Assembly (NCBI GenBank): GCA_013368315.1
Contig: JAACJM010000006.1
Coordinates: 124,001-188,000, forward strand
Length of the DNA: 64,000 bases
Source: Tetrapyrgos nigripes
Taxonomy: Eukaryota > Basidiomycota > Agaricomycetes > Agaricales > Campanellaceae
Direction: 5' to 3'
The notes beneath the pieces are model-generated. The model worked only from the letters and a program-made list of their open reading frames with translations. It searched no databases and was not told the DNA's origin. Below, one piece after another: positions 12,579-50,900 of the stretch; the stretch's first letter is position 1; the number at the start of each line of letters is the position of its first letter. The position numbers and the translations under genes are program-made.

Positions 12579-12586
12579 TAAGAGAA

Positions 12587-13207
12587 TAGGGCTCCTAGCG
12601 GATTGGATGATCCGGCGCCATCTGAGCAATTGCTGCTTCGGATTCGGATGCGGATGGTGCTCCTCCTCCTCCTCCATCCGACAGATAGCATCCGACCAAT
12701 CCGACGGTAATCTGTGGATGGAAAGCCCAAGACTGGAAGTTTCAGAAATACTATATAGTACTACTACCAAGTAGAGAAATACACAAAAATAAATAACGGC
12801 CGCAACCAGTAGTATGTGTGGCTTCAACAGACAGCATTAATCCTTCATAATGCTGACTGGTTTGAGTGTTTCGCGAACGCTGGCGCTCTGATATTGAAGG
12901 TGCGGTGTCGGGTCTGAAACCTAGACACATACTTTTCTATTCTTTAATTTATTATCTTTTCTCTCCAGATCATATCCTTGGTTTATTTTCCGTTACTCTT
13001 TTGCATTCCTTGGCCGCCACCATGTTGTTTATCTTATCTGTATGTCATGTGATCATAGATATACTATATAAGGGAAGCAGAACTCATCCGGCGATCATCC
13101 GTCGGATGCTCAGATACCATCTGGCGGATGCGGATTGGGATTTGCAGACCACCCATCCGAGCGGATGGCATCCGAATCCGACACAATCCAATCCGATAGG
13201 AGCCCTA
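12587..13207. mobile_element. Non-autonomous hAT element, copy 1 (621 bp)
   Basis: Begins TAGGGCTCCTAGCGGATTGG and ends in the inverted form, ATCCGATAGGAGCCCTA, and is flanked by a perfect 8-bp duplication TAAGAGAA (12579-12586 and 13208-13215). An 8-bp duplication and TAGGG termini define the hAT superfamily. Inside are many scattered GGATG/CATCC words near both ends. No transposase is encoded. A same-length, nearly identical copy is at 40001-40621. It must be mobilised in trans; the 2.8-kb hAT at 40986-43826 shares the TAGGGCTCC terminus. Confidence 0.92.
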
Positions 13208-13252
13208 TAAGAGAACACTGCCATTGGCCATATTGCTATCTACAGAGATATC

Positions 13253-13862
13253 TGTTAAGTCCGGGCGGATCCTAGCGTTAGGAAACATGTCGGACCCGAG
13301 CAGAAGTCTTATTTGGGTTTTGGGAAAGGATAAAGACGAATCTGGGTGGAACCAGTAGTCTCTGAGATCAAAGTATAAGGAAGACACAGAATGGAATCCA
13401 TTAGGACGGTACTATGTTGTCTGAAGTCGGATGAAGTTAGGAGACCAGCTAATTCGATTTTAGACTTAAGCTATCTACTACAAAGTTGCTAGCTTAAGTA
13501 CTACTTCAGAAACTATTGGAATGAAGAGGAGTAAGATAGGAATGGTTCAGAAATAAAGGAAAAGCACATGGTGCTATTGGAGATGGATGGAGTACTGCGG
13601 AACGAAGTGGAACGGATTGGAGATGAAGTGGAGTAAGTTTTGGAGATTAGATACGAGCTATCCAGTAGTTATCCGAAATGAATCACGGGTTCCTGGATGG
13701 GATCCGTATGTGGAGATTAATAGTGGAGCTTGGATATGAATTGGAAATGAATGATCGGAAAGTGTTCGGGATGAAAGGGAATGAAGTTTGAAATAAAAGA
13801 AAAAGAAGTTCGGAAGAGGATCGGATACAATCAGAAAAATGTACGGAAGCATAGATATTACA
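13253..13862 (-). repeat. 3' LTR (610 bp)
   Basis: Plus-strand reading TGTTAAGTCC...GATATTACA. It has a single AAGTGGAAC-type 11-bp unit near 13605, whereas the 5' LTR has five. A polypurine tract lies directly beside its inner edge. Confidence 0.95.
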
Positions 13863-13877
13863 GTATCCCCCTCTTAG
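13863..13877 (-). promoter_or_regulatory. Polypurine tract
   Basis: On the minus strand, AAGAGGGGGATAC runs directly into the TGTAATATC start of the 3' LTR. A purine-rich stretch in this position primes plus-strand DNA synthesis and confirms the minus-strand direction of the element. Confidence 0.75.
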
Positions 13878-14101
13878 GCCTTGAGCCCTCGAGAGGCATG
13901 GAAACGAATAGTAATCCGTCAGAATGAAGTTGAAAAGACAATAGAAGAAAAAATAGAAAAGGGGTGGACCCCGGAAAATGAACAATGGAATCGGAAACAA
14001 ATGGAAGCAATCAGGATTGTGAATGGTTTCTAAATTAAGTAATTGGTAACGAAATGAGCAGGAAACAATAAGGATGGTCTGTGCGCGTATTCGAAAACGT
14101 A

Positions 14102-14108
14102 TAAAAGG
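14102..14108 (+). promoter_or_regulatory. TATA box of the antisense zinc-cluster gene
   Basis: TATAAAAGGG begins at about 14100, 53 bp before the ATG at 14153, on the strand opposite to gag-pol. It supports independent transcription of the antisense gene. Confidence 0.6.
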
Positions 14109-14152: not shown

Positions 14153-15162
14153 ATGTCTTCCACCACCTCCTACGTTCCCCTTGACGTTTCCATGCTCCTG
14201 ACGGAGTATATGACTGAATGGACAACGTCCAACGCGAAACCTCTGGCTCCTGTGCATCCCGAACCTTTGGTGGAGAAAGTGATTGATGATAGTATGAGGG
14301 TGACAGAAAAGCGTCGGGTCCGTCAGGAAAATGAAAATGGTGCGTGATCTTTTTTTTTTTGAATTGGGTTTTCCACAGATGCTAACGGAATCGGCTTTAG
14401 CTCGACAAGCACATGAAGCTCTGATGGAGGAATACGAGGCTGCAGAGGAGTTGATGGAGTTGTGGTTGGAGCAGCGGAAAGACGCGGAAAAGGCAAAGAA
14501 GGAGGAGAGGAAGCGGCTGGAGGAATGGGTAAGGAAAGAGAAAGAACGGACGGAACGGGGCACGGAGATGGAAGTGGAGCATTCTGATGCGGGTCCATCA
14601 GAAAAGGCGAGAGGAAAGAGGAAAGCGAATCCTGGACCGAGTAGTCCTCGTGCAGCTCGGAGGCGACGTAGGGACGAGGGATCTGGGGATGAAGACTCGG
14701 AGAGCGAGGAAGAGGTTGAGGTGGAGAAGGGAGAGGCATATCCTGAGGTACGTTTGCTTTTCTGTTTTTCTACCTTCAGATTTTGACCTTGATTTTGTGT
14801 AGCGGTGTTCCCGGTGTACCTGGCTCGGTTTGGAGTGCACGTCCCAAGGCGACGGGAAACGTGCTTGCGAGTCCTGTGCAGCATCACGCGTGGGTTGTAG
14901 TTTCACCGGTCGGAAGGCCATCATTCCCGATGTCTCGACCCTTTGTGCCATACAGTTGGCCCAACTCCATCGTCTCATCCATATGGGGAATGTGATAGAG
15001 GTGATCGTGGCAGCGTCGGATATCACACTTCCCAGAATGGAGGATGAGGAATGGACAGGAATGGAGGCAAGATTGTTGGACATGCCGGAATCGCTCGGAA
15101 AGCCGAAGAAGAAGGGAAAGGGGAAGAAACCAAGATCAAAGGCAGTGGTAGAGGAAGATTGA
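14153..15162 (+). CDS. Retrotransposon-borne antisense gene, coiled coil plus Zn2Cys6-like cluster
   Basis: Three exons: 14153-14339, 14401-14747, 14803-15162 (894 nt, 297 aa), in frame with consensus GT-AG borders; intron 1 has a GCTAAC branch site 20 bp before its end. Order: residues 1-62 N-terminal region, about 63-115 a highly charged helix (EALMEEYEAAEELMELW, then KE-rich), then an acidic and basic linker, then C-SR-C-TWLGLE-C, nine residues, C-ES-C-AASRVG-C. This CX2CX6C-X9-CX2CX6C spacing fits the fungal Zn(II)2Cys6 binuclear cluster, but here it is C-terminal to a coiled coil and not at the N-terminus. The C-terminus is Lys-rich. The gene faces the chromodomain end of pol (stop at 15388) and has its own TATA box. 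No stop or frameshift, in contrast to gag-pol. A role as transcriptional regulator or nuclear nucleic-acid-binding protein is inference. Confidence 0.75.
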
Positions 15163-15387: not shown

Positions 15388-15834
15388 TTAAGATGAAATT
15401 GGAAGAGGACCAGGTTTGTTCGGATTTTTCTGATGGTACTTGTTTATAGCTTCTTCGGCTGTAAGCTCATCCGTGGGAAGCCAGGAAAATTCTTTGTCGG
15501 TGCCTTCGTAACCAGACCACTGTACCAAATATAGTAGAGGACATTTCCGACGGCGCCAATCGATTTTTGAGTCTAAGATTTCGGTGATTTCATATTCAAG
15601 TTCACCTTCAATTTCGACTGGAGCGGGCAGATCTGGAATACGATTCGGAATCGTGTTGGGAACAGCGGGTTCGAGTTGGGACACATGGAAAACAGGGTGG
15701 ATCCCACGGAGATAGTCAGGGAGCTTTATGGCATAAGAAAGAGAGCTCGGATGAGAGATAACTTTGAATGGACCAAGGAATTTCTCGGAGAACTTCGGAG
15801 GGGGTCTTGTAGTTTTTATGTGTTTGGCAGACAC
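15388..15834 (-). pseudogene. Integrase C-terminus and chromodomain of chromovirus
   Basis: Minus strand. GPFKVISHPSSLSYAIKLP and HPVFHVSQLEPAVPN are the GPY/F module of integrase. EYEITEILDSKI, YLVQWSGYEGTDKEFSWLP, then AINKYHQKNP form a complete chromodomain with the three aromatic-cage positions plausible. Terminates near 15388. This piece is itself open but is cut off from the rest of pol by a TGA at 15970-15972 and by the nested LTR. Confidence 0.9.
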
Positions 15835-17700
15835 AAAAACTTCGGAACCGATAGGGATTTCTTGTAAATCCAGACGGCGTTTGTCAGCCTGTACCTTGTA
15901 ACGTTTCTGAGCTTCTCGAATCTCATCCCGAAGGAAACCATGAAGTTCCTCGAGATTGACAACGAAATGTCAGGCACGCTTGGAAGCGAGATTGTAGTCG
16001 GGATGAACCATTAAGTTTGGGTGAAACCCTTTATTTGCGAAGAAGGGTGTGATTCCGGTGGAAGCGTTCTGTAATATCTATGCTTCTGTATATCTTTCCA
16101 ATCGTATCCAATTATTTTCTGAACTTCTTTTCCTTTTATTTCGAACTTCATTTCCTTTCATCCCAAACACTTTCCGATCATTCATTTACGATTTCATATC
16201 CGAGCTCCACTATTAATCTCCACACACAGATCTCATGCGGGAACTCGTAATTCATTTCGGATAACTACTGGATAGCTCGTATCTAATCTCCAAAGCTACT
16301 CCACCTCATCTCCAATCCGTTCCACTTTGTTTCCACTTTGTTTCCACTTTGTTCCGCAGCACTCCATCCATCTCCAATAGCACCATATGCTTTTCCTTCA
16401 TTTCTGAACCATTCCTATCTTACTCCTATTCATTCCGATAGTTTCCGAAGTAGTACTTAAGCTAGCAACTTTGTAGTAGATAGCTTAAGTCTAAAATCAA
16501 ATTAGCTGGTCTCTTAACTTCATTCAACTTCAGACAACAAAGTACCATCCTAACGGATTTCATTCCGTGTCTTCCCTATACTTCATTCTCAGAGACTACC
16601 GGTTCCACCCGGGTCCGTCTTCATCCTTTCCTAAAACTCCAATAAGACTTCCACTCGGGTCCGACGTGTTTCCTAACGCTAGGATCCACCTGGACTTAAC
16701 ACGTTCGGAGCATTATTGTAAGTGAACTCAGCGATGGGAAGTAGGGAAGACCAATTATCCTGTTGGTAAGAACAATAGATCCGGATGTACTGCTCGAGTG
16801 TCTGATTGGTGCGCTCTGTCTGTCCGTCAGCTTCCAGGTGATAACCCGAAGTGAAGTGAAGTTCCATATTCAAAGCTTTTCCTAAGGATCGGAAAAATGG
16901 GAAACGAATTCAGAACCACGGTCGGAAGTGACATGGTTAGGAACACCATGCTTAGAGAAAACATGAAGAACAAATAATTCCGCGAGCTGTTCCAATGTAA
17001 TGGTATCATGAGTTGGAATGAAGATTCCCTGTTTGGATACGCGGTCCACAATTACCAGGATTGCTGTGTATCCGTTGGAATCCGGTAGTTGTTCGATAAA
17101 ATCCATGGAAATTGAATCCCACAGATGGACCGGTATGGGAAGTGGTTTTAGGAGACCATAAGGACAGTGTCGACGAGGCTTGTTACGACCACAAACCGTA
17201 CAGGAAGCAACATAATCCCGAACGAATTCTAGGACCTTTGGCCAGGTATAGTGGCGTCGGATAAGGTCAAGCGTCCAGTTTTGTCTGAAGTGTCCTGCTA
17301 GAGAATGGTCGTGGTGCTGTCGCAAAACTTGAAGTCTAAGGTCAGAAGCACCAGGAACGAATATCCTATTGTCCAAGCGTAGTAACCTGGATTCATCGAG
17401 TTTCCATCGGGATGATGAGGAATCCTTAGCTAGTTTGAGACCGGCTTGTGATTCCAGATTGGAAGCATAGGATTCTCGGATTGTGGAATGGAGTTTCTCG
17501 ATATCCATGATAATGGATGCACAGAGTGCGGGTCCTTCGAGGAAAGAGGCTCAGAGCGATTCGGAAAGTTGTTCTTGGGTGAAGACTGGGCGGAAATTCT
17601 GCGGATTAACCTTGGCGTAGTCACTATCCCCCTCTTTTGGGTAGACATCCCATCATCTAGTGAGTGAGTCGGGTTTTGCACCTAGTTTACCCGGTCGGAA
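15835..17700 (-). pseudogene. Integrase core of chromovirus, interrupted
   Basis: Minus strand. Zinc-binding H-x(n)-H and C-TV-C (HDHSLAGH, then SCTVCGRNK), then the catalytic core: DSISMDFIEQLP (first Asp), TSDRGSEF (second Asp), [12 protein letters not shown] (Glu). Broken by TGA at 17653-17655, 17551-17553 and 15970-15972, all at expected Arg CGA codons, by a one-base shift in a T run near 16873-16890, and by the 632-bp solo LTR at 16070-16701. Confidence 0.9.
16065..16706 (+). mobile_element. Solo LTR nested in integrase (16070-16701) with CGTTC duplication
   Basis: A 632-bp LTR of the same family in the opposite orientation to its host element, TGTAATATC...GACTTAACA on the plus strand, bounded by a perfect 5-bp duplication CGTTC (16065-16069, 16702-16706). 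It must derive from a full insertion that later lost its body by LTR recombination. It has three 11-bp CTTTGTTTCCA-type units. Confidence 0.95.
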
Positions 17701-17739: not shown

Positions 17740-19308
17740 TCAGACTTGTCGTCGTGTTAGAATTTTGGTGGTCGAAAAATATTCCAAATTCTTGTGATCG
17801 GTAACAACATCAATAGGGGATCCGGAGCCTTCCAAGTAGTGTCGCCAGATTCGGAAAGCTTCAAAAATGGCAAGCAATTCCTTATCGTGAACGTCATAAT
17901 TGAGTTCAGCAGATTGTAAGGTGCGTGAATGAAATGCGATGGGATGAATCTCTCTGGAATCGTACTGGAGAGAGAGGATTGCAGCGATAGCGTAATCGGA
18001 AGCGTCGGTTTCGACGATGATCTTCTGGTTCAGAACCCAATGACCAAGGATCGGAGCAGAAGTAAAAGCATGCTTAAGGTAATCGAAAGATTCCTGGCAT
18101 GCCTGCGTCCATTTCCATGGGATAGCTTTTCGGGTGAGACGGGTTAGGGATACGACGATATCCGAATAATTGAAGATGAAGCGTCTGTAAAAATTACAGA
18201 AGCCTAGGAAAGATTGTATATCCCGGACCTTCCAAGGAACGGGCCATTCTAGGATAGTTCGGATTTTAGAAGGATCCATCGTTAACCCTTCGGGGGAGAG
18301 AATGTAGCCTAGATACTCCACGGTATCAACGGAAAAGAAGCATTTTTCGGGATTAACGAAGAGTCCGTGCTCTCAGAGCCGACGGAATACTTCGCAAACA
18401 TGCTTCTGATGGTCCTCCTCATTGTCAGAATAGATCAGGACGTCGTCAAGATAGACGATGACAGTGACGTCGAGGAGATCCTTGAGGATGTCGTTGATAA
18501 ATCGCTGAAAAGCGGCAGGAGCATTACTGAGACCAAAAGGCATCACTTTCCATTCGAAGGATCCGTAGCAGGTCCGGAAAGCGTTTTTCCATTCATCCCC
18601 TTCAGCGATGCGGACCAAGTGGTAAGCGTGACGGAGATCCAACTTGGTATAGATTTTCGTGCGCTGGGGAGTGTCTAAAAGCTCGGAAATAAGCGGAAGC
18701 GGATACCTATCCTTCTTCGTGATGGCATTGAGGCCACAGAAGTCAACGCAAAGCCAAAGCTCTCCGCTTTTCTTCTTCACAAAGAGGACCGGAGCTGCGA
18801 AGGGCGAGGATGAAGGTTTGATAAAACCTATAGTCAGATGTCTGTCGATAAATTTCCGTAATTCTCCTAATTCCCTGTCGGATACCAGATAAATCTGGGC
18901 AATCGGCAGAGACACGCCCTCGACAAGATCAATCTTGAGGTCGTAGGGGCGATGCGGAACCAGTTTATCTGAAAGTCCTTTGTCAAATACATTGGAATAG
19001 TCAGCTAAGTATTCGGGAGCCTTTGGAGAAGGTGGGGTTTCCGAATTTGAGGCTTTCGCATGAACCTCAGCATCCGGGGTTAACCGGAGTGCCATTGGTT
19101 CAAGCTGATCCTGTTTGCAACAGCGAAGGAAAGCTGCTGCTCCGATGATGCTAATGCGGGTGTCGTCAACGGAAGACGCCATTTGCAAGACGGAGGGATA
19201 GGAATAGATGGGTTCGTACAGCCATGATGATTTAGAACGAATGGGTGGCATTGCAGCTGGAAGTGGTGTGGAAACTGGAGGACCCAGGTCAGCCTCAGAG
19301 GGCGACAC
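17740..19308 (-). pseudogene. Reverse transcriptase and RNase H of chromovirus
   Basis: Minus strand. RT: PYDLKIDLVEG, LPLISELLD, TKLDLRHAYHLVRIAEGDEW, MPFGLSNAPAAFQRFIND, then YLDDVLIYSD with the catalytic YLDD. After a TGA at 18373-18375 (VFRRL-stop-EHGLF, expected CGA) comes the thumb/connection EYLGYILSPEGL, FLGFCNFYRRFI. RNase H: DASDYAIAAILS, DKELLAIFEAF, TDHKNLEYF. The next stop is TGA at 17740-17742 (TRRQV-stop-WSEYL), again at an expected Arg. Confidence 0.95.
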
Positions 19309-19807: not shown

Positions 19808-21317
19808 CTATTTTGGGGACTGCGTGGAAGCAGTGCCAGTCACGGAAGTACTACTGGACAAGGTGCTTTCCGTGTTTGCAGCTCGGCTGCGAGCTTCGTT
19901 CGCCGCCTTCCACTTGTTACAGTCATCCGTCGAATGCTTCCCGCCACAGAACATACAGAGATTGTTCTTCTTGCGGCGGTCCCTTTCGTCCTGGGATAAC
20001 TTTCTGTCCTTCCCGAGCTTGTTAGCCCAGGGTTTCTTCTGGCTGGAAGGGAACGAAGACGACGAGGATGAATTATAGTTGGAATTGGAGGAATTGGAGG
20101 AATATCCGGATTTCCCACCTTTACCAGAGTTTGAGGACTTTCCGGAGCTGGAACCGGAACTATTACCTCCCGAACCTTTCCCCCCAGAATTCCCTTTTCT
20201 CCTGCTCCCTTCTTCCCGTTTCTTCTCAGTTTGGCGACGCCAGTAACGGGAATTGATTCGGAGAACCTGGGATTTGAGACGAGGAAGGTTCTGCTCCTCG
20301 TAGACTAGGGCAAGGGTGTCCTTGATTCGCAGAGCCAAACCCTTTCGGAAAAAGATGTCGCAGGGAATTCTCATCCCAAGTGACCTGCGAAGCAAGTTGT
20401 TGGAACTTGATGCAGTACTTCGTGGCCCGATCGGAATCCTTCATGAATAGGGCCTCCAATTGGTCCTCAGCATCCCCGACCTCATCAAAAACCCTGAAGT
20501 TGTCCTTCAGCTCCTTGACGAAAATACCAAAGTCAAGGGTCCACGGAGCGGGTTCCTCGGGATCCGGGTTGAGGATTTCCGGTTCAAAGAATTTGAGTGC
20601 GGTGCCGGAGAGATAGGAAAGAGTGAAACTGATTTTTGCAGCATCAGTCGCGTATGCCTTGGGACGGTTCTGGAGATTAATCTGGATCTGGATCAGGAAC
20701 GGACGGAGCTTCTTCGGATCCGACCCATCGAAAACGTCGGGTTTCTTCACTTCCGTCTTTTCACTGTGACCAGGTGTAACTTTTCCGATGATCTCGTTGA
20801 AACTTTGGAGGGCGGTAATGAACTGCCTCCTTTCGTCAGAACCGTCGGAACCATCTTCTCCTCCCAGAGGCCCATCATCTGGTGGTCCTCTGCCACCATC
20901 ATCAGATCTGCCTCCTCCACCACCCTGAGGTTGTTCATTGTCGTCCCCGTCATTTCCCTGACCATAATGCTGGCTCGGTGGAGAACCACGGCCGTCATCG
21001 GGATTGGCGGGAGTACGCGAGGGTCCTGCTCGAGAGGATCCTTGAGTTTGCTGTTGGACGTATGAATGGCTTTGGGTTTGTGTAAGGGTTGTGGAGTCTC
21101 CTGGCTCCGGGCCATCCCAGCTATCGAGGAATTCCTTAAACGGACTCGTGCGGGGTTTGGTTGGGCTCGGGTGTGCGAAAATGCTGCCGGAGCATCTGTG
21201 TTGGCAAATTTGAACGTTACGGAAGAGGTTGGAATAATAAGCGTTTTTGAATGGAGTTACCGGAACTGTAAGGTTCAGTGTCGGGGAAGGAGTTCGTGGT
21301 TGAGAACGTTGGGACAT
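19808..21317 (-). pseudogene. Gag of chromovirus
   Basis: Minus strand, ATG at 21317 (MSQRSQPRTPS). Acidic, Gly-rich linker, then the retrotransposon gag core (KPDVFDGSDPKKLRPFLIQ, YLSGTALKFFEPE, DEVGDAEDQLEAL). The frame shifts by one base in a T run near 20350 (RHLFPK versus DIFFRK). The second part has RRQTEKKREE, a Ser/Gly tract, and a C-MF-C-GGK-H-STDD-C zinc knuckle, one residue shorter between C and H than the canonical CX2CX4HX4C. Ends near 19808. Confidence 0.88.
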
Positions 21318-21347
21318 TGTAGACAACAAGAGAGAAGTCTAAAATAC

Positions 21348-22001
21348 TGTTAAGTCCGGGCGGATCCTAGCGTTAGGAAACACGTCAGACCCGAGTGGAA
21401 GTCTTATTTGGGTTTTGGGAAAGGATAAAGACGAATCCGGGCGGAACCGGTAGTCTCTGAGATCGAAGTATAAGGAAGACACAGAATGGAATCCGTTAGG
21501 ACGGTACTATGTTGTCTGAAGTCAGATGAAGTTAGGAGACCAGCTAATTCGATTTTAGACTTAAGCTATCTACTACAAAGTTGCTAGCTTAAGTACTACT
21601 TCGGAAACTATCAGAATGAAGAGGAGTAAGATAGGAATGGTTCGGAAATAAAGGAAAAGCACATGGTGCTATTGGAGATGGATGGAGTACTGCGGAACAA
21701 AGTGGAAACAAAGTGGAAACAAAGTGGAAACAAAGTGGAAACAAAGTGGAACGGATTGGAGATGAAGTGGAGTAAGTTTTGGAGATTAGATATGAGCTAT
21801 CCAGTAGTTATCCGAAATGAATCACGGGTTCCCAGATGGGATCTGTATGTGGAGATTAATAGTGGAGCTCGGATATGAATCGGAAATGAATGATCAGAAA
21901 GTGTTCGGGATGAAAGGGAATGAAGTTTGAAATAAAAGAAAAAGAAGTTCGGAAGAGGATCGGATACAATCAGAAAAATGTACGGAAGCATAGATATTAC
22001 A
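21348..22001 (-). repeat. 5' LTR (654 bp)
   Basis: Same boundaries as the 3' LTR but with five 11-bp units (AAACAAAGTGG, 21695-21750), giving exactly 44 bp more than the one-unit 3' LTR. Just inside it on the coding strand the sequence is GTATTTTAGACTTCTC, without the TGG expected of a tRNA primer site. Confidence 0.95.
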
Positions 22002-47969: not shown

Positions 47970-50900
47970 ATGGATGAAGACGGCCTCTTTCCCTGTGGAC
48001 AGTGCCCGAAGAGATTTACAACTCAAAGAGGCTGGAAACAGCATCAGAATTATAAACATCGACCAGCAGCAGACACACCCCGTTTCCCTACACCTAATTT
48101 TCGGACTCCTTCACCTGCACCATTGTCTGGACCGTCGTCGCCAATTTTTTCATCTCGTCGATCACCAAGGCGTAGACAAAACGGCTCACCTGTCCGTTTG
48201 ACTTGGGCAGCGGCTCCATTGGAATTGCAGAGATATGGAACTCAGGTTACAGAACATCCGATACTCGACGGTTGGTGTTTTCCTTTGCGGGTATGAACCA
48301 CATTGCTAACCTCAAATTCTATCTAGGCACACCTTGCGATATCTATGGCGATGACCTCCCAGAGGATACCCCACCCCCCGCTCTAGAACCTCGAGATCCT
48401 GAAGACTACACTCCGTTTGGCAGTGCTGACGAGTTTGAGTTGGCCGAACTACTCTATGAGCGGGTTCAGATGTCAGCCTCAAATATCGACAGACTCTCAC
48501 AGCTGATCGCCAATCTCTTGGGACCTGACAAAGACGCTCCGTTTCTAAACCACGAAGAGTTATACAAAACGATTGACAGAATTAAACAAGGCGACATACA
48601 ATGGGACAGCTTCACAGTCAAATACAACGGAGAGCTTCCCGATGATCTATCCACTGCTCCAGCATGGAAGTTGCAGGAATATGAAGTCTGGTTTCGTGAT
48701 CCACTATCTATCCTTGAGGGGATGCTCGCAAACCCAAGCTTCAAGAACGAGCTTGATGTCGCACCCAAAAGATTGGTCAAAAACGGTAAACGGCTGTATC
48801 GGGACTTGATGACTGGAAACTGGGCTTGGTTTGAATGCGTGCGTGTGTGTGCTGTTCTTTGTCAAAGATATACTCACTTTCTTCTCTCCAGGATAAGATA
48901 TCTGAGGACGAGAACACTCACGGTGCCATGTTTGCACCCGTCATTCTCGGTAGCGACAAGACCACGGTATCTGTCGCTACTGGTCAAAATGATTATTATC
49001 CCCTCTACATCTCCCTTGGAAATGTGCATTCATCTGTTCGACGTGCTCACCGCAATGCAGTTGCTTTGCTCGGGTTCCTTGCAATTCCCAAAAGTATGTC
49101 AAGTTTAATATAATTCTTTTACTACCTCACTGACTTGTACTTGTCCCTCCAGCCTCTAAGGACTATGCAGGTAGTGCAGAATTTCGGAAATTTCGACGTC
49201 AACTTTTCCATACCTCTCTCGAGCACGTTCTTTCAAGCCTCAAGCCTTTCATGGAAAAACCCCGAGTAACCCGTTGTCCAGACGGACATTACCGTCGTGT
49301 AATATATGGTCTTGGCCCATACATCGCAGACTATCCGGAGCAGGCTCTGCTAGCATGCATAGTCCAGAATTGGTGTCCTCGGTGGGTACTATTACCATCC
49401 ATAAACCATTTTCTTATTGTTGACTGTTTCAATGATTGTAGCTGTACCGCAAGACCCGAGAATCTAGACAGACCAGCTGGACGTCGAAGTCATGAGCACA
49501 CCGACACTGTTTCAGAAGGTTGTAGCCTCAAAGAAGTTTGGGATAACTATGGTATCGTTGCAGATTTGAAGGTATGTTTCTATTGTTGTATCATACCTTC
49601 ATGTATTAAAGACTTCTTCCAGCCGTTCACCGCCGGGTTTCCTCGAGCTGATATCCATGAGCTATTGGCACCAGATCTGCTACACCAGCTTGTGAAGGGT
49701 ACTTTTAAGGACCATCTCGTCGACTGGGTTGTGGAGTATATCAACCTGACATATGACAAGAGTGAAGCGGAGAGGAGGCTTGCAGATATTGATCGGAGGT
49801 ACCTATTTTTTCTTCCAATTCTTGCACCGATGCCCACTAACCACTACAACACAGGATTATGGTCACAACTCCTTTTCCTGGCTTACGCCATTTTCACGAG
49901 GGACGAGGCTTCAAGCAGTGGACTGGTGCTGACTCAAAGGGTCTCATGAAGGCAAGTTCTTTTGTTAGTTTGTATTAATCAATACTAATACTCTTCTCTA
50001 GGTATTTCTACCGGCGATTGCGGGTCATGTACCTGTGCAGATGGTACAAGCTGTTTCGGACTTTCTGGAATTCTGCTATTTGGTCCGGCGCAACGTCATC
50101 GATGAAGATAATCTGGACGCAATTGACGCAGCTATTGCACGCTTTCACCAGAACCGCGAAATTTTCCGAGAGACTGGTGTACGGCCTGATGGGTTTTCTC
50201 CCCTCCCACGTCAGCACTCTATGGTTCATTACCGTCACCTCATCCAACAATTCGGCGCTCCGAATGGCCTTTGCTCTTCCATCACCGAGTCAAAACATAT
50301 CAAGGCCGTGAAGCGACCTTGGAGACGTTCCAGCAGAAACCAACCCCTAGGGCAGATGTTGGTCACTAATCAACGTCTTGACAAGCTCGCCGCTTATCGC
50401 GTAGATCTTGAATGTCAATGTATGCTCGATCCCGTCAAGGACAGGTCCAATCTGCCGCCGCCGCCACCACCACCACCACCGCAAGAGGAGGATGACGAGG
50501 ACACTGAAGAATCTGGAGATAGTGATGAGCCTTACTCACAAGGGGATGTTAAGTTGTCTACTAAAGCTGGTGAGTATTATATTTGTGCGGTTTTTATCAG
50601 TAAGGCTAATCAACATTTATTGCCCAGCTCGTGGAGTCCCTCGCGATATCAACACCCTTGCAGCATACATCAATCAGCCCACCCTTCCCATCCTTCTCCG
50701 ACAATTTCTCTACACCCAACAACATCTCGCAAATGGTCCACAGGGCTGTAACGTACCTCTGGCGTCTTGCCCGGAGCTGGAGAGGAATCAGAAGGTCTTC
50801 CTCCACAATTCGGCAAAGGCAACTTTTTTCGCTCCAAGTGACATGTCCGGCTTGGGTGGGATGCGTCATGAACGCATACGCTCAACGACGTCATGGCGGC

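Follow-up and report, generated by a model that had tools for sequence, protein, structure and literature searches.

Accessory ORFs that run antisense in retrotransposons have long been on record, and no function has been assigned to them (PMC7264820). In Botrytis cinerea, the Ty3 element Boty/BcGypsy1 carries a chromodomain and an antisense gene, brtn, between pol and the 3′ LTR (PMC7264820), and brtn is described likewise in passages of three further papers (PMC8365987, PMC4227169, PMC5987419). Compared by description, the locus reported here resembles Boty/BcGypsy1 in that a fungal chromodomain Ty3 element has an extra antisense gene between pol and the 3′ LTR. It differs in that the host of Boty/BcGypsy1 is an ascomycete. 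The antisense gene here is also spliced and encodes a Zn2Cys6-like cluster, neither of which is mentioned for brtn in the passages of these papers. The locus lies in a 64,000-nt stretch of a contig of the basidiomycete Tetrapyrgos nigripes, which we call the window and to which all positions refer. We find that the gene is not a passenger but belongs, as an accessory gene, to a clade of fungal Ty3/Gypsy chromoviruses, and it is almost certainly a protein-coding gene encoded by the element and maintained for the element.

A spliced antisense gene in a decayed chromovirus

The minus strand of the window carries a Ty3 chromovirus with both LTRs, a 5-bp target site duplication (TSD; ATATC) and a broken gag-pol. 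LTR comparison and the TSD place the 5′ LTR at 21349–22000 and the 3′ LTR at about 13254–13863, with a polypurine tract just inside the latter (13864–13885; on the element strand, ...AAGAGGGGGATA), and the LTRs are of the TG..CA type with a short TSD, as in Ty3/Gypsy chromoviruses. Between them, all on the minus strand, lie a gag capsid piece (20226–21329; weak Ty3_capsid/Retrotrans_gag matches under the Pfam cut-off), a gag C-terminal piece with a zinc knuckle CX2CX3HX4C (19808–20395), the reverse transcriptase (RT; 18373–19308) and RNase H (17740–18321) pieces identified by Pfam, an integrase piece (16882–17508; Integrase_H2C2, with rve slightly under the cut-off) and the 3′ end of pol, in which Pfam finds SH3_Tf2-1 and a chromodomain (15388–15834). 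The Pfam order along the element is RVT_1, RT_RNaseH_2, Integrase_H2C2, SH3_Tf2-1, Chromo, the chromodomain being C-terminal. Nested at 16069–16703 on the plus strand is a solo LTR that belongs to this family but has the opposite orientation (TSD CGTTC).

The state of gag-pol agrees with the sequence-only reading, made before any database search, which had described at least five stops and several frameshifts. With the nested solo LTR excluded, the main pol frame contains seven stops (at 18375, 17742, 17655, 17553, 16884, 16872 and 15972), some of which may lie downstream of frameshifts, and further signs of decay are a change of frame from the gag piece to the pol pieces, and the nested solo LTR itself. 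Across 609 compared sites, the two LTRs of the element show 22 differences, all of them transitions; 187 of the 199 differences in 12 further LTR pairs are likewise transitions, and around the antisense gene the CpG-transition type accounts for 267 of 564 variable columns. The near-exclusive transitions in LTRs, together with the many CpG-type columns, indicate that a methylation- or RIP-like process is behind the decay of these copies. The window also contains a MITE-like element of about 620 bp at 12586–13208, some 45 bp away from the 3′ LTR, whose 23-bp terminal inverted repeats are 96% complementary. At 48203–49949 lie two open pieces, which resemble transposases of the Plavaka family with E 2.6e-27 and 1.1e-40.

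The antisense gene lies on the plus strand and fits entirely into the interval from the pol stop (15388) to the 3′ LTR, which is the position of aORF-3R ORFs, and runs tail-to-tail with pol across a 225-nt gap. Its spliced coding sequence of 894 nt joins 14153–14339, 14401–14747 and 14803–15162 and encodes 297 aa plus the stop. A TATA box (TATAAAAGG) at 14100–14108 lies 53 nt upstream of the ATG, and TATAAAA is conserved in all 20 copies of the gene displayed. Exon 1 (14153–14339) encodes aa 1–62 and the first base of codon 63, so that intron 1 (14340–14400; GTGCGT..TTTAG, with a GCTAAC branch-like motif) is in phase 1. Reading of the sequence shows that a closer AG at 14378 would keep the frame closed, and the acceptor at 14400 opens it. 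Exon 2 (14401–14747) encodes a charged helix with acidic and basic stretches and is followed by intron 2 (14748–14802; GTACGT..GTAG), and exon 3 (14803–15162) encodes the Zn2Cys6-like cluster (14806–14898), a helix with an IQLAQL core and a basic tail. The single CX2CX6CX9CX2CX6C cluster occupies aa 180–210, and the six frames of the whole window contain no other Zn2Cys6-type match. The gene is thus real, and its three-exon structure, TATA box, coordinates, strand, product and cysteine spacing are as they had first been read.

Both introns have GT-AG borders in 25 of 25 copies that have all three exons, the intron 2 donor of one copy (L031) being displaced by a deletion. Among the same 25 copies the gene is intact in 14, a count that includes L031 and both L048 and L049, which perhaps represent one insertion. 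Indeed, L048 and L049 (C67:343297 and C310:80612) have a common flank; they may be two haplotypes or one duplicated insertion, and the assembly may contain both nuclei of a dikaryon.

Distribution and conservation of the gene

A tblastn search of the genome from which the window comes (98.5 Mb, 587 contigs) gave 173 matches to the antisense-gene protein, and the rows used from the listed part of these and from a second search merge into 74 gene loci. By coordinates, an opposite-strand chromodomain lies downstream within 3.5 kb at 66 of these 74 loci, at a distance of at most 900 nt in 65 and of 213–245 nt in 36, and none of the 74 has a same-strand chromodomain within 4.5 kb or an opposite-strand chromodomain upstream within 3.5 kb. 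In 20 of 20 close copies fetched, which were selected via the antisense gene itself, the gene lies antisense between a chromodomain and 3′ LTR sequence, so that the homologs are linked to the element, as the first reading had proposed, rather than confined to unlinked host loci. The eight loci that have no chromodomain include three that appear split by insertions (C53, C86, C143), one at a contig end (C212), one with RT 2 kb away (C24; this check used part of 129 RT matches) and three that have no explanation (C113, C248, C304). TSDs were judged by eye in 16 other copies displayed, of which 12 have an exact 5-bp repeat, one has a repeat with a mismatch, one has none (L048) and two are unjudgeable.

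The converse comparison starts from chromodomains, 150 of 929 candidates being listed. The gene stands beside 66 of the 73 listed chromodomains that are at least 57% identical, and hence in most copies of the family, as is the case for aORF-3R ORFs, and beside none of the 77 listed with less than 50% identity (50 + 27), which are part of the other chromoviruses. Three of the seven related chromodomains that stand apart from the gene (C24:614519, C185 and C57) have a weak match in the right place and on the right strand (E 0.018, 0.057 and 0.54), and four (C381, C302, C11:562687 and C59) have no trace of it. Among matches that fall neither at the 74 loci nor at the chromodomain relatives, E is 0.11 or higher, except for one at C39:477509–477871 (E 1.1e-5, 31% identity). 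As far as seen, the antisense gene is therefore a marker of one chromovirus clade in its own genome, and it is found in the pol–3′ LTR interval of most detected clade members.

The gene is common to copies that are only 37–48% identical, which argues against the earlier suggestion that it might be younger than the element. Five distant copies (family B, L051–L055; 38–42% identical to those of family A) retain the six cysteines and the order of parts; all five have the cluster and the IQLAQL helix and lack intron 2, and intron 1 is at the same place and phase in four, the donor being gone in L053. Each of the 31 exon-3 sequences aligned has all six cysteines; for this alignment, family A copies were picked for an open frame and four family B copies by a pattern that included three of the cysteines; L054 lies outside this alignment (A2), and its six cysteines are visible in the sequence. 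In family C (C22:364856–365398, C22:573127–573684 and C35:301039–301593), judged by coordinates only, the match continues through the intron 1 site, with length differences of +12, −6 and +12 nt against the family B query and of +45, +27 and −12 nt against the family A query (the −12 from a shorter match), and 78–82 nt separate the matches at the intron 2 site, with 4–7 query residues unmatched. At the intron 1 site of C113 and of the family D copy C10, 52 and 47 nt lie between matches, again by coordinates only. Apparently, then, the intron sets differ, with introns 1 and 2 in A, intron 1 only in B and intron 2 only in C. If the letters agree, this mosaic entails at least one precise intron loss, barring parallel gains. 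Loss through reverse-transcribed spliced antisense mRNA, a route that the mosaic would fit, is a lead and not a result.

Selection on a protein and the rival explanations

Of 28 aligned copies, 21 entered the dN/dS analysis (pooled Nei-Gojobori, from pairs of related copies), the other seven being excluded for frameshifts or missing exons; a 20-copy set also omits L048, which has a flank in common with L049. In the spliced frame, dN/dS is 0.255 for 21 copies and 0.258 for 20 copies, with a codon bootstrap interval of 0.193–0.340 that is approximate because the pooled pairwise values come from related copies. The two shifted antisense frames give 0.94 and 1.26 (21 copies), and the three sense frames, taken over the whole gene with introns included, give 0.81, 0.57 and 0.81. 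The low value is thus confined to the spliced frame and, together with the retention of the six cysteines, indicates selection on a protein; the first reading had named values near 1 as part of what would tell against the gene, and the purifying selection found bears out its proposal of a spliced gene carried by a retroelement. The chromodomain piece of pol gives 0.202 (0.128–0.299), so that conservation of the antisense gene is comparable to that of another element protein, as in aORF-3R ORFs, and since the constraint is nearly as strong as for this piece, the element probably needs the antisense-encoded protein. When CpG-type codons are masked, the gene falls to 0.171 (0.108–0.256) and the pol piece to 0.084 (0.036–0.170), which places the latter under tighter constraint, and one sense frame, at 0.48, is the lowest among the controls.

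The sequence-only reading had also raised the possibility that selection acts on the gene independently of the element. For transitions private to a single copy, normalised N/S is 0.70 in the gene and 0.76 in the pol piece; for those found in more than one copy it is 0.42 and 0.41, respectively, all from small counts. Gene and pol piece being alike in this respect, the gene was selected during multiplication of the element and relaxed once inserted; selection apparently works through the element, and the suggestion is not upheld. The same reading had set the absence of stops in the gene against the decay of gag-pol. The window copy is indeed intact, but intact copies make up 14 of the 25 with all exons, and if the gene were disabled as often as the gag-pol pieces are, with 4.16 hits per 1000 codons, about 1.2 would be expected in 297 codons, so that finding none is unsurprising and intactness counts for little. 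In 19 copies, the antisense gene has 6 stops in 5682 codons and the gag-pol pieces have 100 in 24033, a contrast that we do not take as extra evidence of selection because pieces vary widely (0.36 per 1000 in the chromodomain, 6.8 in gag) and tblastn treats frameshifts crudely. Gap lengths, which are multiples of three in 7 of 9 cases in exons and in 0 of 14 in introns, were not used as evidence either, because frameshifted copies had already been removed.

These data bear on several other explanations. An open frame might be a mechanical shadow of constraint or codon bias on the sense strand, and two long minus-strand ORFs (245 and 224 codons) do overlap the gene, one sense frame having a dN/dS as low as 0.57. 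However, neither ORF has a domain above the cut-off, pol stops short of the gene, and values of 0.57–0.81 in sense frames and 0.94–1.26 in shifted antisense frames contrast with 0.26 in the spliced frame; with the constraint specific to that frame and the splice sites conserved, we reject this explanation, the probability of which is negligible. The functional product might instead be an antisense RNA that, by pairing with the genomic RNA, contributes to silencing or to the control of copy number. An RNA role has been discussed for plant antisense ORFs (PMC7264820), and the conserved TATA box of a gene that converges on pol would suit it. Such a role, if it were the only one, predicts neither a low dN/dS limited to the spliced frame, with shifted antisense frames near 1, nor the retention of six cysteines across families about 40% identical; as sole product, RNA is ruled out by the frame-specific constraint, and we regard it as very unlikely that RNA, and not the protein, is the functional product. 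It is likewise scarcely credible that this insertion captured, or lies over, a host gene, possibly exapted and selected for the host: the intact window copy within a broken gag-pol would fit, but the 74 loci genome-wide track the element rather than host loci, 14 of 25 all-exon copies are intact and private changes are relaxed as in pol, on which grounds host capture is rejected for the window locus.

A further alternative accepts an element-encoded protein and moves its place of action from transcription to the particle or the pre-integration complex, with a part in chaperoning, nuclear import or integration targeting. The basic tail and zinc module would suit binding of nucleic acids, and the chromodomain partner indicates chromatin-directed biology. 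On the other hand, a separate antisense promoter and a spliced mRNA would be an odd route to a particle protein, and since gag has its own zinc knuckle, there is no need for a nucleocapsid replacement; we consider a particle function unlikely, though far from negligible. An accessory gene of the clade that encodes a nuclear accessory or regulatory protein, with function read broadly, is the likely explanation.

The zinc cluster, possible function and relation to known systems

The consensus spacing of Zn2Cys6 clusters is CX2CX6CX5-12CX2CX6-8C, to which the cluster of the antisense product conforms. Pfam Zn_clus (PF00172) scores 12.1 bits (E 0.22) against a cut-off of 21 and so does not reach the gathering score, and it is weak in 6 of 8 family members tested (best E 0.092). 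An AlphaFold model has a mean pLDDT of 63.9, and of about 50 over the cluster, and comparison of this weak model with pdb_via alone gave a weak match to PUT3; a search of solved structures with alignments A1 and A2 returned chance-level matches only. In a collection of 5.8 billion proteins, none of 2110 candidates matched the spliced product at E ≤ 1e-3, and none of 7997 scored candidates matched alignment A1 at E ≤ 1. As a control in the same collection, the RT piece matched 6936 of 7974 scored candidates (best 62% identical), with relatives in Lentinula and Trametes and one labelled frog, so that the collection does contain fungal Ty3 proteins, apparently none close to this clade. The blank protein search can be explained by fast divergence, three-exon genes and a word-based search.

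The product resembles fungal zinc-cluster regulators, and the regulation of LTR or host transcription, as first proposed, is plausible. From the anatomy of the gene, we infer transcription from its own promoter and splicing of the mRNA by the host. The antisense orientation accounts for the survival of the introns, because the reverse-transcribed sense genomic RNA carries their splice sites only as the reverse complement. The product would presumably be nuclear on account of its basic C-terminal tail, the Zn2Cys6-like module and the following helix may bind DNA or chromatin, and the protein could thereby adjust transcription of the element itself or some nuclear step in its cycle, a role of the kind suggested for Grande GENE23 and Retand TRP28. 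Binding to DNA and control of the LTRs are inferred, and a DNA-binding LTR regulator is a tentative reading that we hold possible without favouring it. CGG triplets in the LTRs exceed expectation (23 against 10.2, and 17 against 9.3), but the density of CGGAA/TTCCG is 6.6–10.7 per kb whether in the LTRs, in gag, in pol or in the antisense gene, against 0.9–2.0 per kb in the flanks tested; being high over the whole element, it does not single out the LTRs as a target, and the site enrichment is equivocal. The boldest form of the proposal, in which the whole clade would encode an antisense, spliceosome-dependent zinc-cluster transcription factor that controls the LTRs, and introns would come and go via reverse-transcribed spliced antisense mRNA, is speculative and rather doubtful.

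With this clade, the antisense ORFs gain a fungal example that shows selection at the codon level, contains introns and encodes a recognisable metal-binding motif. Among the papers listed in a literature search of titles and abstract starts, most subscription journals lying outside it, none described a fungal retrotransposon with a spliced or Zn2Cys6-like antisense ORF, and the combination appears new among known retrotransposon antisense ORFs. Should the protein bind the LTR, fungal retrotransposons would be shown to have dedicated regulators of transcription, built on the type of zinc module that their hosts' own regulators use.

Maize Grande gene23 and rice RIRE2 aORF-3R differ from the gene described here in belonging to plant elements, and a review describes no Zn2Cys6-type cluster for them. 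The antisense ORFs of Retand, a plant non-chromovirus, encode a TRP28 domain (PF04195), for which the proteins of our element have no match at E ≤ 1, and introns go unmentioned in the main text of that report. In comparison with fungal Zn2Cys6 factors of the PUT3 and GAL4 type (PF00172), the cluster lies at aa 180–210 of 297 rather than at the N terminus, the match is under the Pfam cut-off, basic residues are few in the first loop, and Pfam finds no fungal_trans domain in the product. HBZ of HTLV is a leucine-zipper type protein, to which the antisense product is unrelated. As an analogy only, the two are alike as nuclear regulators encoded antisense in a retroelement, the present one putatively so, in as far as HBZ is described in the part of PMC11963269 considered here. 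On the LTR-controlling reading, the antisense product would be a retroelement counterpart of Tat/HBZ-type regulators, built on a fungal Zn2Cys6 module.
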